A stretch of 64,000 bases of DNA from Cytobacillus oceanisediminis 2691 (GTDB lineage Bacteria > Bacillota > Bacilli > Bacillales > Cytobacillaceae). Below, piece by piece: positions 26,386 to 62,513 of this stretch (the stretch's first letter is position 1; each line of letters begins with the position of its first letter). The notes under the pieces were generated by a model, which worked only from the letters and a program-made list of their open reading frames with translations, had not been told where the DNA came from and ran no database searches. A program made the position numbers and the translations under genes. The stretch spans positions 61,671 through 125,670 of the forward strand of contig NZ_VEEP01000007.1 in the NCBI RefSeq assembly GCF_007678455.1. The letters run 5' to 3'.

Positions 26386-27210
26386 ATGGTTCGGACATGG
26401 TTGGAGGGAAAAATGGTGAAGCTTTCCAAAGTAGCCCAAAGTTCGGACAGGTTATGGGGAAAAACTGAAAAAGCTGTCCGAAGCAGCCCCAAGTTCGGAC
26501 ATGTTATGGGGAAAAACTGGAAAAGTTGTCCGAAGTAGCTCGAAGTTCGGACAGGTTAAGGAGGAAACCTGAAAAAGCTGTCCGAAGTAGCCCGAAGTTC
26601 GGACAGGTAGGGAGGAAAAACTGGAAAAGCTGTCAAGAAAACATCGTTATTTTGACAGTTCTGAAGATAGAAGGGCAAAAGCTGTCAAGAAAGCAACGTT
26701 ATTTTGACAGGTCCGGAGGTAGAAGTCGAAAAGTTGTCAAGAAAGCATCGTTATTTTGACAGGTCTGTAGGTAGAAGTCGAAAAGTTGTCAAGAAAGCGT
26801 CATTATTTTGACAGGTCTGAAGATAGAAGCCGAAAAGCTGTCAAGAAAGCGTCGTTATTTTGACAGGTCTTAAGGTACAAGCCGAAAAGTTGTCAAGAAA
26901 GCGTCGTTATTTTGACAGGTCCAGGGGTAGAAGCCGAAAAGCTGTCAAGAAAGCATCATTATTTTGACAGGTCTTAAGGTACAAGCCGAAAAGCAGTCAA
27001 GAAAGCAACGTTATTTTGACAGGTCTGTGAGTAGAAGCCGAAAAGTTGTCAAGAAAGCAACGTTATTTTGACAGGTCCGGAGGTAGAAGCCGAAAAGCTG
27101 TCAAGAAACCATCATTATTTTGACAAGTCTGAAGGTATAAGCCGAAAAGCTGTCAAGAAACCATCGTATTTTTGACAGGTATGAAGAGAAACGACAATAA
27201 TCTGTCAAAA
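26386..27210 (+). repeat. 52-bp tandem array B (sixteen units)
   Basis: The GACA core falls at 26394, 26446, 26498, 26550, 26602, 26654, 26706, 26758, 26810, 26862, 26914, 26966, 27018, 27070, 27122 and 27174: sixteen units, every step exactly 52 bp. Early units have arms TTCGGACAG and CTGTCCGAA; from the unit at 26654 on the arms become TTTTGACAG and CTGTCAAGA. The change occurs in both arms across one short-loop pair, so complementarity is kept. The array fills the gap of about 970 bp between yuxO and the convergent monooxygenase. No coding function is supported; 52 is not a multiple of 3, and open frames here are chance. Confidence 0.97.
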
Positions 27211-48069: not shown

Positions 48070-48670
48070 TGGGCCAAGCTCGGACAAGGTTTAGAGTGAA
48101 TTCGGGAAAGCTGTCCGAAGTTGGTGTGACTTCGGACAAGTTTCTAGAGTGAACCCGAAAAGCTGTCCGAACATGGATTGACTTCGGACAAGTTTCAGAG
48201 GAAACCCAGAAAAGCTGTCCGAAGTTGGTGTGGCTTCGGACAAGTTTCTAGAGTGAACCCGAAAAGCTGTCCGAACATGGGTTGACTTCGGACAAGTTTC
48301 AGAGGAACCCCCGAAAAGCTGTCCGAACATGTCCTGACTTCGGACAAGTTTCAGAGGAAATCCCGAAAAGCTGTCCGAAGTTGGTGTGGCTTCGGACAAG
48401 TTTCTAGAGTGAACCCGAAAAGCTGTCCGAACATGGATTGACTTCGGACAAGTTTCAGAGGAAACCCCGAAAAGCTGTCCGAAGTTGGTGTGGCTTCGGA
48501 CAAGTTTCAGAGGAACCCCCGAAAAGCTGTCCGAACCCGGCACGACTTCGGACAGGTTTCAGAGAAAACCCCGAAAAGCTGTCCGAACTAGGCCTGACTT
48601 CGGACAAGTTTCAAAGAGAAACCCAAAAAGCTGTCCGAACCCGGCACGTCTTCGGACAAGAATCATCAGT
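48070..48670 (+). repeat. 52-bp tandem array C (twelve units)
   Basis: The GACA core falls at 48083, 48135, 48187, 48239, 48291, 48343, 48395, 48447, 48499, 48551, 48603 and 48655, every step exactly 52 bp. Arms are TTCGGACAA and CTGTCCGAA. Two unit types (one with TTTCTAGAGTGAACC then ACATGG, the other with TTTCAGAGGAAACC then GTTGGTGTGG) alternate for much of the array, giving a 104-bp higher-order repeat. The array follows the yugI terminator and occupies most of the 810-bp gap before rocD. Confidence 0.97.
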
Positions 48671-60333: not shown

Positions 60334-60489
60334 ATGGTACTGATTATGTGGATCGCCATAGCTTTTATCATATTGTATTATTTATTATTTGGTATAACGC
60401 TTTGGCGGCAAAAAAACAAGGTTGGAGCTATTGTTATCGTCCTTTTGTCTTTGTCTTGCATAGCACTCCATTATTTTTCCTATCAATGA
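60334..60489 (+). CDS. 51-aa two-helix protein, candidate germinant receptor D subunit
   Basis: This ORF starts with ATG immediately after the gerC stop, with GAGGG just upstream in the gerC end, so it is part of the ger operon. The product has two hydrophobic helices (about residues 2-22 and 30-47) joined by the basic turn WRQKNK. Size, topology and place match the small D subunits described in several ger operons, which modulate receptor function. Sequence identity cannot be judged at this length. Confidence 0.72.
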   Translation: MVLIMWIAIAFIILYYLLFGITLWRQKNKVGAIVIVLLSLSCIALHYFSYQ

Positions 60490-60526
60490 ATGTGCCGGCC
60501 ATTTCAGGCTGGTGCAAATTTTTAAA

Positions 60527-60571
60527 TTTTACGAACACTATGATAATATATAATAAAATAATCACGTAAAA
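60527..60571. promoter_or_regulatory. Inverted repeat around a TATAAT before the PlcR-like gene
   Basis: TTTTACG (60527-60533) and CGTAAAA (60565-60571) flank a core containing TATAAT (60549-60554), 14-60 bp before the regulator gene. It could be an operator or part of the promoter. It does not match the B. cereus PlcR box. Confidence 0.45.
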
Positions 60572-60584
60572 ATGGGGTGTAGGG

Positions 60585-61472
60585 ATGGGCCTGGTTGGAT
60601 ATAACTTCGGAAAGATACTTAAGTCTTCAAGAGTTTTTAAAGGATTGACTGAGGCACAGTTGGCTGCAGGTATATGTTCTGAAGAGGATATCATTCAATT
60701 TGAAAAAGAAGAGAAATATCCAACAATTGATCAATTATATAAGATGGCTTCAAAGCTTGAAGTAGAGCTTAACCATTTTTTCGATATCGCTTCGTCTGAT
60801 ACATACAATTACGCCATCGCTGTCACGGAGTTAATCAAAAAGTATAAAAGAGAGCGTGATTATGCTGCTATTGATGAAATCCTCCAAAAGGAGCAGGATA
60901 ATCAGCTTTTTAAGCATACGTCTTTCAATCAGTTTCTGGTATGGCACCAGGGGATATGCAGCTATTACCTTGAGGGAGATAGACAGAAATCAATCGGCTT
61001 GCTTGGTCAGGCATTGGCAATGACTCATCAGGAACAGGCTAGTATGAGCGAACGTGAAATCGAGATTTTGACCAGTATGGCCATTATTGAAAAGGACAGC
61101 GGGAACCTTGACAAGGCAGTGGAGCTTTTTCTGAAGGCCCTGAACCAGCTGACAGAACTGCCTCAAGTCCAGGATTCAAGCATCTGGCTAAGGATTCTTT
61201 ACGGTCTCGCCCAGGCACTGTCAAAGCTGGAGAGATATGAGGAATCACTCATATACTGCAGCAAAGGAATCGATAATTGTATATATGAAGAAAATATGTA
61301 TTTATTTGGAGAACTTTATTACCAATCAGGCATGAATTTTATTAAATTGGGTAAAGAAAACAAAGGGAAGGAATATCTCGAAAAAGCAGTCATGATTTTC
61401 AGGCTTCAGAAGAATGAGAAGTTTGTCAGTCTAGTAGAAACTGAAATGGAAAAATTATTGAAATATTGCTGA
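60585..61472 (+). CDS. PlcR-like peptide-responsive regulator (RRNPP family)
   Basis: A 295-aa cytoplasmic regulator. An N-terminal Xre-type HTH (about residues 6-65: KILKSSRVFKGLTEAQLA, then YPTIDQLYKMASKLEVELNHFF) is followed by a helical TPR region to the C terminus with repeats such as DKAVELFLKALNQL and EESLIYCSKGIDNC. Length, order and wording of the HTH follow PlcR of the B. cereus group, which is activated by the imported peptide PapR. The gene just downstream encodes a secreted precursor whose repeats resemble PapR, so receptor and signal are probably a pair. GGGGTGTAGGG precedes ATG 60585. It may autoregulate through the inverted repeat upstream. Targets unknown; the ger operon upstream is one candidate. 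Confidence 0.9.
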   Translation: MGLVGYNFGKILKSSRVFKGLTEAQLAAGICSEEDIIQFEKEEKYPTIDQLYKMASKLEVELNHFFDIASSDTYNYAIAVTELIKKYKRERDYAAIDEILQKEQDNQLFKHTSFNQFLVWHQGICSYYLEGDRQKSIGLLGQALAMTHQEQASMSEREIEILTSMAIIEKDSGNLDKAVELFLKALNQLTELPQVQDSSIWLRILYGLAQALSKLERYEESLIYCSKGIDNCIYEENMYLFGELYYQSGMNFIKLGKENKGKEYLEKAVMIFRLQKNEKFVSLVETEMEKLLKYC

Positions 61473-61513
61473 TACACCCTTTAACTTTTTAGCCAGAGGC
61501 AGAGGAGGATAAA

Positions 61514-61891
61514 ATGAACAGAATAATACTGATGACCATTTTTGCTGCATTTTTTGCTGGTGTATCTGGTTGGGATTCTGAAGATAGGAGCCTGGCCGAT
61601 TTGCCATCACAACACGCGCCAACTGGTACAACCATAGCCGGCTTGCCCTCACAACATTCAGGCGATGGAGTCACCCTGGCAGACCTGCCGTCACAGCATG
61701 CACAAGAAGGAACATTGGTAGCAGATCTTCCCTCGCAGCACTCGCAGAACGGGACAATCGTAGCAGACCTGCCATCACAGCACACCCAACAAGGAACATT
61801 GGCAGCAGATCTTCCCTCACAGCATTCGCAGAGCGGGACAATTATAGCCGACCTGCCGTCACAGCATAGTCAAGTTGAAGGATTAGTGTAA
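61514..61891 (+). CDS. Secreted multi-copy PapR-like pheromone precursor (seven ADLPSQH repeats)
   Basis: A 125-aa secreted protein. Signal peptide MNRIILMTIFAAFFAGVSG, then seven repeats with the LPSQH core starting at nucleotides 61601, 61643, 61685, 61727, 61769, 61811 and 61853, an exact 42-nt (14-residue) period. The repeat is ADLPSQH(A/S/T) with linker of the type QNGTIV; copy 2 has AGLPSQH. All 35 core residues are identical while Leu, Pro, Ser, Gln and His codons vary, so the peptide is under selection. ADLPSQH parallels the PapR heptapeptides ADLPFEF and SDLPFEH. Likely fate: export, proteolysis, Opp import and binding to the receptor encoded 41 bp upstream. AGGAGG precedes ATG 61514. 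Confidence 0.88.
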   Translation: MNRIILMTIFAAFFAGVSGWDSEDRSLADLPSQHAPTGTTIAGLPSQHSGDGVTLADLPSQHAQEGTLVADLPSQHSQNGTIVADLPSQHTQQGTLAADLPSQHSQSGTIIADLPSQHSQVEGLV

Positions 61892-61902
61892 GAAATGATT
61901 TG

Positions 61903-61938
61903 AGACAGCCTGGACCGATTAGGTCAGGTTGTTTTTTC
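61903..61938 (+). terminator. Terminator after the repeat-peptide gene
   Basis: ACAGCCTGGACC pairs imperfectly with GGTCAGGTTGT around GATTA, then TTTTTT. Confidence 0.75.
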
Positions 61939-61973
61939 ATGTTGAAGGGGAAACCTTTTTCTTCATGTTTTTA

Positions 61974-62255: not shown

Positions 62256-62513
62256 TCAGTCTACGATATCCATATGGCTCCCGTTCATCATATTGAAGTT
62301 TTTGCTCGGCATGGCACCGTTTGTTCCGTGGCAGTCATTGTACATTTGCTTGACCTCTTCATCGGACAAGCCGGGATGCATTTTTTCGATAAGCGGCTTC
62401 ATCTGGCCAAAATTGAATACGCCTTTTCCTTCTGTTCCTTCTTCCGCCAAGGCGGCGGTACTGGCTCCAAGGATTATGGCTGCGCTTAATAAACTTAACG
62501 ACAGTTTTTTCAT
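62256..62513 (-). CDS. Small secreted protein, unknown
   Basis: An 85-aa protein with a clear signal peptide (about 1-24, ending LAEE) and a mature region of about 60 residues containing QMKPLIEKMHPGLSDEEVKQMYNDCHG, a helical segment with one Cys and several Met and His residues. AAAGGAG precedes ATG 62513. I do not recognise a characterised family. Metal binding is conceivable from the Met/His content but not shown. Confidence 0.7.
   Translation of the reverse strand: MKKLSLSLLSAAIILGASTAALAEEGTEGKGVFNFGQMKPLIEKMHPGLSDEEVKQMYNDCHGTNGAMPSKNFNMMNGSHMDIVD

Follow-up and report, generated by a model that had tools for sequence, protein, structure and literature searches.

The PlcR-PapR system of the Bacillus cereus group pairs a receptor made of a helix-turn-helix (HTH) domain and tetratricopeptide repeats (TPR) with an adjacent small precursor of secreted type, PapR, which carries one C-terminal copy of the pheromone. 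We describe a similar two-gene locus in 64,000 nucleotides of contig NZ_VEEP01000007.1 (positions 61,671 to 125,670; the whole stretch is called the window), where a receptor of the same predicted fold is followed by a precursor with seven internal copies of the putative pheromone ADLPSQH. The two heptapeptides share A-D-L-P at the same places (ADLPFEF versus ADLPSQH, compared by sequence only), and positions equivalent to PlcR Lys89 and Gln237 are present in the window regulator. In contrast to PapR, which has Phe5, Glu6, and Phe7, the window peptide has Ser5, Gln6, and His7, and its regulator falls in a separate clade and lacks a PlcR box at the locus.

Other described systems share some of these features. 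PlcRa of B. cereus is a PlcR paralogue with its own precursor, PapRa, and an internal pheromone, CSIPYEY; unlike at the window locus, one pheromone copy is described and the precursor gene lies upstream, with abrB2 as the direct target (PMC3519770). A survey of RRNPPA systems reported AimR, NprR, PlcR, and Rap propeptides with up to six identical pheromones, among them repeats in 3 of 15 large PlcR propeptides, and proposed a dose increase by "chattering"; its authors called the processing of multipheromone precursors a "fascinating mystery" (PMC9765709). Multicopy precursors of PlcR-subfamily receptors have thus been reported in outline, which corrects the first-pass annotation of the window, where no description of such a PlcR partner in a non-cereus Bacillus was known. 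However, the available sections of the survey contain no clade with fixed arrays and its main text does not name Mesobacillus, whereas here arrays accompany 71 of 71 clade receptors and reach 16 copies. The Phr3T and Phr105 precursors of Bacillus phages also carry tandem pheromones, and there the copies were shown to mature and act; the tested systems have two copies, although up to eight are cited for Phr (PMC11343458), and their Rap receptors have no HTH domain (PMC9765709).

The window pair is very probably a PlcR-PapR-type RRNPP quorum-sensing operon whose ligand is ADLPSQH, with several molecules released per precursor, and this tandem precursor system is part of a larger pattern beyond the window locus. 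As far as literature searches reach, novelty lies in the fixation of arrays across the clade, their range of copy numbers, and the residues predicted to set specificity; the supplement of the survey may list some of the proteins. Among the core peptide strings searched in the open-licence literature, with subscription papers, supplements, and some clade cores outside the scope, only DLPFEH was found, as a PapR pheromone. A search of the same literature that paired the name Mesobacillus with quorum sensing or with PlcR gave nothing naming the genus among the matches listed. In the clade and its neighbours, related receptors of non-model bacteria come with precursors of 1 to 16 copies; this natural series, together with a two-residue prediction of receptor specificity, opens copy-number dosage, paired-cut maturation, and the coevolution of receptor and signal to direct testing.

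A PlcR-like regulator and its putative seven-copy precursor

The regulator matched the Pfam family RNPP_C with an E value of 1.5e-20 (74 bits, cut-off 26.5), and its best sequence match in the PDB was PlcR (E=3.9e-21). The predicted model was all-helical (pLDDT 90), with 3u3w and 2qfc as the best fold matches over nearly the full length and Rap, NprR, ComR, Rgg, and PrgX among the others. At 295 amino acids (aa), the protein fits the PlcR architecture of an HTH domain and five TPRs in about 285 to 300 aa, with 26 to 27% identity to PlcR in structural alignments. It groups with RRNPP receptors and did not cluster with a non-RRNPP family. The regulator is not a PlcR orthologue: in each of the two trees, PlcR (2qfc residues 6 to 269) grouped with receptor L025 (SH-aLRT 100 and 99) and did not fall in the window clade, although its exact place is unsure owing to long branches and a quick method. 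Judged by sequence, the regulator is a PlcR-like paralogue; the earlier description as a PlcR-PapR-like pair is supported for the receptor type by RNPP_C, the best PDB match, and the fold. The same genome contains a second PlcR-like receptor (L002, G000:C221:472774-473616), divergent from a 39-aa open reading frame (ORF) ending in YDLPFEH. This ORF shares its last six residues with SDLPFEH, a PapR form of the B. cereus group, and cross-talk is possible.

The precursor gene starts 41 nt behind the regulator, with both genes on the + strand. Its seven LPSQH cores begin at residue 28 and follow a strict period of 14 residues (42 nt), with ADLPSQH in six copies and AGLPSQH in copy 2. Tandem Repeats Finder independently detected the array with periods of 42 and 84, and the ORFs, their spacing, and the 42-nt repeat of the first-pass annotation were all found again. 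Unlike the pheromone in PapR, the array does not reach the C terminus: an SQVEGLV extension follows copy 7. The N terminus is basic and then hydrophobic, and secretion was judged from this composition. An adjacent gene for a small propeptide of secreted type, as expected of RRNPP systems, is present, yet its 125 aa exceed the precursor length limit of RRNPP_detector, 10 to 100 aa (PMC10075063). With seven copies of the predicted mature peptide, it falls within the definition of a multicopy propeptide (at least two mature-peptide copies).

The cores are under strong purifying selection. Across 22 arrays whose receptors are at least 60% identical (129 cores), the ratio of nonsynonymous to synonymous differences per site (pN/pS) was 0.052 in the cores versus 0.62 in the spacers, with similar pS (0.57 and 0.51, respectively). 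Pairs within an array are not independent, but the contrast between cores and spacers stands because both share one history. Cores were taken with up to three mismatches to ADLPSQH; a stricter motif with L, P, and S fixed gave 127 cores and unchanged ratios. LPSQH was present in 125 of the 129; the exceptions were one LPSKH and three last copies that had degenerated. The window array by itself gave ratios of 0.04 for cores (pS 0.78, pN 0.03) and 0.80 for spacers (pS 0.62, pN 0.49), which agrees with the earlier remark that the LPSQH core is invariant while synonymous codons differ between copies. Such repeats were also rare in the surrounding DNA. At least two identical [LIMFYVP]P-x-x-[HYF] 5-mers occurred in 84 of 8,910 open frames (30 to 300 codons; 565 kb of fetched loci), 83 of them in loci with a receptor and a multicopy precursor (L080 has two) and the last behind the plasmid receptor L178; as all loci were selected by receptor, this indicates rarity in their flanks rather than genome-wide.

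Conservation and a clade with tandem precursors

The window locus belongs to a soil bacterium of the genus Mesobacillus. Named matches were M. boroniphilus, M. selenatarsenatis, M. subterraneus, and M. harenae and, at a greater distance, Robertmurraya kyonggiensis. A PlcR-like protein was found at E<=1e-20 in 99 of 193 genomes of the family, and an order-level search gave a match at E<=1e-52 in 77 of the 397 genomes drawn. The window orthologue occurred in 20 of 21 listed Mesobacillus genomes, and a tandem DLPSQH precursor lay behind the regulator in all 20, three of these loci (L014, L017, and L009) being interrupted by a contig end or N. No precursor match was obtained in the 21st genome or in two other receptor-less genomes (3 of 3) with a single precursor query of limited sensitivity. 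Complete Mesobacillus arrays had 2 to 12 copies. The first-pass annotation had made its proposal depend on the repeat gene accompanying orthologues, and in related genera, too, the gene adjoins every window-type orthologue examined. A locus titled Chryseobacterium sp. ISL-80 (L033, JAGGQZ010000006.1) is a Mesobacillus locus with a 93% identical regulator and the same gene order and is apparently mislabelled.

We placed 166 receptors in a quick IQ-TREE phylogeny with SH-aLRT support only; the sampled loci comprised all those listed at >=41% identity in the family search, all those listed at >=44% in the order-level search, and some of the less similar ones. The window regulator falls in a clade of 71 receptors (support 98) that spans 13 genera and three families by genome codes, and all 71 have a same-strand downstream precursor with at least two copies. 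A window-type receptor with a GYPTQH x2 precursor on a Cytobacillus oceanisediminis plasmid (L178, NZ_CP062791.1) also falls inside (support 99 for 72). Copies were counted in 72 loci, including one duplicate receptor, and 68 arrays were complete. These had 2 to 16 copies, with at least four in 49 and more than six in 17; a single core 5-mer was used throughout in 62 of them. The array ended exactly at the core in 33 of the 68 and did not in 35. The cores differ by lineage and include DLPSQH, DLPTQH, GIPSEH, EMPTQH, DYPVQH, and GYPPQH, among others. Surveys that accept precursors only up to 100 aa would be expected to miss such systems, since 26 of the 68 complete precursors are longer, as is that of the window.

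Outside the clade, 47 of the 58 receptors with an assigned precursor had a single copy (45 ending at the core) and 11 had at least two copies, including L144 (GLPPQH x2), which is close to the clade. Assignment relied partly on motif and position; outside the clade it may contain errors, and that of L108 is doubtful. No precursor was assigned to 38 of 172 tabulated receptors, none of them inside the clade. Tandem precursors appear to have arisen more than once and to have become fixed in the window clade, because single versus multiple copies require at least nine changes on the tree (129 rows), multicopy precursors occur outside, and all 71 clade receptors have one.

At least four genomes (G078, G088, G090, and G097) each have two window-type receptors with differing tandem pheromones, which in G088 are GLPTQH x16 and GIPTQH x3. 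Multicopy precursors in a group with divergent genes (L164, L166, L174, and L175; e.g., ELPPIY x8, ELPSVY x5, and AIPFPPRML x5) are apparently independent of the window clade. Many divergent-type receptors, among them L105, L099, and L104, have in common, by eye, an approximate 16-bp box, TATnnCTnnAGnnATA, in the upstream region near the regulator start; it has the length of the PlcR box with different letters and is a possible operator of that sister group. Two derived patterns detected no relative in viral contigs and two weak partial matches were seen in phages, giving no indication of a mobile origin. Relatives were present in 24 plasmid records, all at <60% identity, and two of these were inspected, L178 and L179 (NZ_CP071474.1). 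The latter, from a Priestia megaterium plasmid, encodes a PlcR-like receptor, and the unannotated frame behind it has a single DLPYQH as its end.

Possible receptor-signal match and proposed mechanism

In PlcR, Glu6 of the PapR heptapeptide contacts Lys89, Gln237, and Tyr275 (PMC6568020), whose equivalents in the window regulator are Arg91, Glu243, and, by profile alignment, Phe280. We scored receptor columns against pheromone position 6 by mutual information divided by joint entropy. Column 91 ranked first of 269 across the 129 receptors to which a pheromone was assigned, and it remained first or second after dereplication to 103, 79, 61, and 40 receptors. Arg91 accompanied Gln at position 6 in 64 of 66 cases, Trp or Lys accompanied Glu in 22 of 23, and Leu or Met accompanied Val in 8 of 10. 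For the 86 receptors with a same-strand downstream precursor, column 243 ranked first and column 91 second of 263, and column 243 was second and then first on dereplication to 45 and 34 receptors. The association suggestively ties position 6 to the equivalents of Lys89 and Gln237 and supports a PapR-like register without proving it. Positions 2, 3, and 5 of the pheromone also gave top columns, which were not placed in the groove.

Several results weigh against this match and the wider reading. When the same-strand set was dereplicated, column 91 fell to 27 of 272 and 39 of 273. Over all 129 receptors, column 243 ranked only 82 of 269, and the Gln237 equivalent was therefore rejected as a general specificity site and kept for the same-strand downstream group alone. 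An HTH column, I11, ranked almost as high or higher, so the association is partly phylogenetic. Column 280 showed no clear split, and L085 pairs a Q-type pheromone with an E-type receptor. Tree-independent pairs were few and not significant: for E versus W or K at 91, three of five agreed, none disagreed, and two showed no difference; for Q versus R91, a median of one of seven agreed, none disagreed, and six showed no difference; for E versus loss of E243, about 2 of five agreed and 0.2 disagreed. The arrays of L003, L006, and L009 close with a degenerate copy (DLPSQL, DLPSQD, and DLQPQL), as if terminal copies were less constrained, and therefore not every copy need count. The PlcR box TATGNAN4TNCATA is missing at the window locus. 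Finally, a degenerate promoter pattern identified no regulon or target gene, as it occurred once per genome and always 5' of the regulator in the 14 of 14 Mesobacillus genomes searched; this says little on targets because the pattern was built from those same sites and contains the core promoter.

The receptor and the predicted pheromone are nevertheless in all likelihood a cognate pair, as judged from their sequences and arrangement, with the heptapeptide ADLPSQH probably the main form. Support for ADLPSQH as the signal, as first proposed from the window alone, comes from the constraint on the cores, the association at PlcR contact positions, and single-copy relatives with a similar core as their very end (GLPSQH, GLPNQH, and DLPFEH). 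We propose that, along the known RRNPP route, the precursor would be exported by Sec and that extracellular proteases would cut each core on both sides, so that one precursor would free several peptides of the ADLPSQH type. Of the 129 copies in the 22 Mesobacillus-type arrays, 119 have Val, Ile, or Leu directly before the 7-mer core and 104 have Ser directly after it. These flanks suggest cutting near hydrophobic residues, since such residues precede the core and mostly Ser follows, with a second cut or trimming. Maturation has been reported of PapR by NprB (PMC4701985, citing Pomerantsev 2009) and of duplicated Phr by WprA, Bpr, and NprE (PMC11343458), and the genome encodes two M4 peptidases. 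Reimported by an oligopeptide permease (Opp), the peptide would occupy the TPR groove in the same register as PapR, placing Gln6 opposite Arg91 and Glu243, and its binding would switch the HTH regulator by altering DNA binding.

The array would multiply the ligand per transcript relative to the cotranscribed receptor, and copy number may tune the response threshold. More ligand per cotranscribed receptor would be the simplest reason for many copies, and we lean slightly towards such dose multiplication as the explanation of the array. On a wider view, to which we give an even chance, the clade dropped the one-pheromone plan for an obligatory precursor of 2 to 16 identical signals, half of the arrays depend on two-cut maturation as none of their copies is C-terminal, and copy number sets the quorum threshold in an evolvable way, with residues 91 and 243 setting the address.

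Alternatively, the array may serve graded or condition-dependent maturation, in which different proteases free different copies or lengths (internal versus last, 5- to 8-mers) and protease timing rather than copy number sets the signal. Internal and C-terminal copies of Phr3T and Phr105 do depend on different proteases (PMC11343458), and 35 of the 68 complete arrays have no C-terminal copy, so that every copy there needs two cuts. However, the near-uniform LPSQH of the Mesobacillus-type cores and the single core 5-mer of most clade arrays give no hint of differently treated copies, and we consider this explanation unlikely.

The sign of the response could also be reversed, with the regulator active without peptide and turned off by ADLPSQH. 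RRNPP receptors of both signs exist. PlcR, the nearest solved relative, and its paralogue PlcRa are both activated by peptide, however (PMC6568020 and PMC3519770), and a reversed sign is very unlikely.

Somewhat less probable again is that slippage and gene conversion maintain repeats of little function and that a single copy would suffice. Close relatives do differ in copy number, as the Mesobacillus range indicates, and the three degenerate last copies point the same way. But every clade receptor has at least two copies although most assigned precursors outside have one, and copies differ by about 0.5 synonymous differences per site while the cores stay fixed, indicating that the arrays were not freshly copied. 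It is hardly credible that the regulator just happens to control a repeat protein with a structural, antimicrobial, or decoy role after secretion, and that this protein is not a ligand source: it is long for a pheromone precursor, but single-copy relatives in the same slot are 28- to 49-aa ORFs of normal PapR architecture ending at the core (including GLPPQH), the core equals PapR at A-D-L-P, and the peptide shows an association with contact positions of the receptor.

Layout and surroundings of the probable operon

The regulator and precursor genes look like one operon because a promoter-like stretch precedes them and a terminator-like hairpin follows (Table 1). The fold of positions 61893 to 61945 had an energy of -21.3 kcal/mol (z -4.5); a simple consensus terminator scan did not report this hairpin.

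Table 1. Features of the receptor-precursor locus, in window coordinates
Feature	Position	Strand	Remarks
Promoter region of operon	60518..60550	+	33 bp, -10-like TGATAATAT; kept across Mesobacillus (aligned upstream regions)
PlcR-like regulator, predicted pheromone receptor	60585..61472	+	ATG start, 295 aa; N-terminal HTH and TPR (RNPP_C) domain
Arg91 codon, PlcR Lys89 equivalent (PapR Glu6 contact)	60855..60857	+	Alignment and position-6 association
Glu243 codon, PlcR Gln237 equivalent (PapR Glu6 contact)	61311..61313	+	Alignment and position-6 association in same-strand downstream systems
Precursor ribosome-binding site AGGAGG	61503..61508	+	Read from sequence
Putative tandem pheromone precursor	61514..61891	+	ATG start, 125 aa; signal-peptide-like N terminus, then seven 14-aa units
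Copy 1, ADLPSQH	61595..61615	+	
Copy 2, AGLPSQH	61637..61657	+	
Copy 3, ADLPSQH	61679..61699	+	
Copy 4, ADLPSQH	61721..61741	+	
Copy 5, ADLPSQH	61763..61783	+	
Copy 6, ADLPSQH	61805..61825	+	
Copy 7, ADLPSQH	61847..61867	+	Followed by 7-aa extension SQVEGLV up to the stop
Terminator-like hairpin and T run, end of two-gene operon	61902..61935	+	RNA fold

The PlcR box was rejected as the operator of these receptors, as among the 112 receptor stretches scanned (a set made up before the order-level loci were fetched) it was found only at L057 (upstream) and at the PlcR-like outgroup L025 (40 bp upstream). Inspection of upstream regions by eye showed no cross-genus operator for window-type receptors.

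The 5' neighbours of the regulator are spore-germination genes (GerAC and a permease, by Pfam). Flanks of up to 4 kb were compared in 13 named loci. A 51-aa membrane-type ORF in the interval between gerAC and the regulator (60334 to 60489, + strand) was kept 5' of the regulator in 11 of the 13. An 85-aa secreted-type ORF without a Pfam family, convergent to the precursor (62256 to 62513, - strand), was present in 9 of 13, with two further loci stopping short of it. Elsewhere in the window, three separate arrays of about 52-bp units (1 to 305, 26389 to 27186, and 48080 to 48660) have the consensus GGACA[AG]GTT...AAAAGCTGTC in common.
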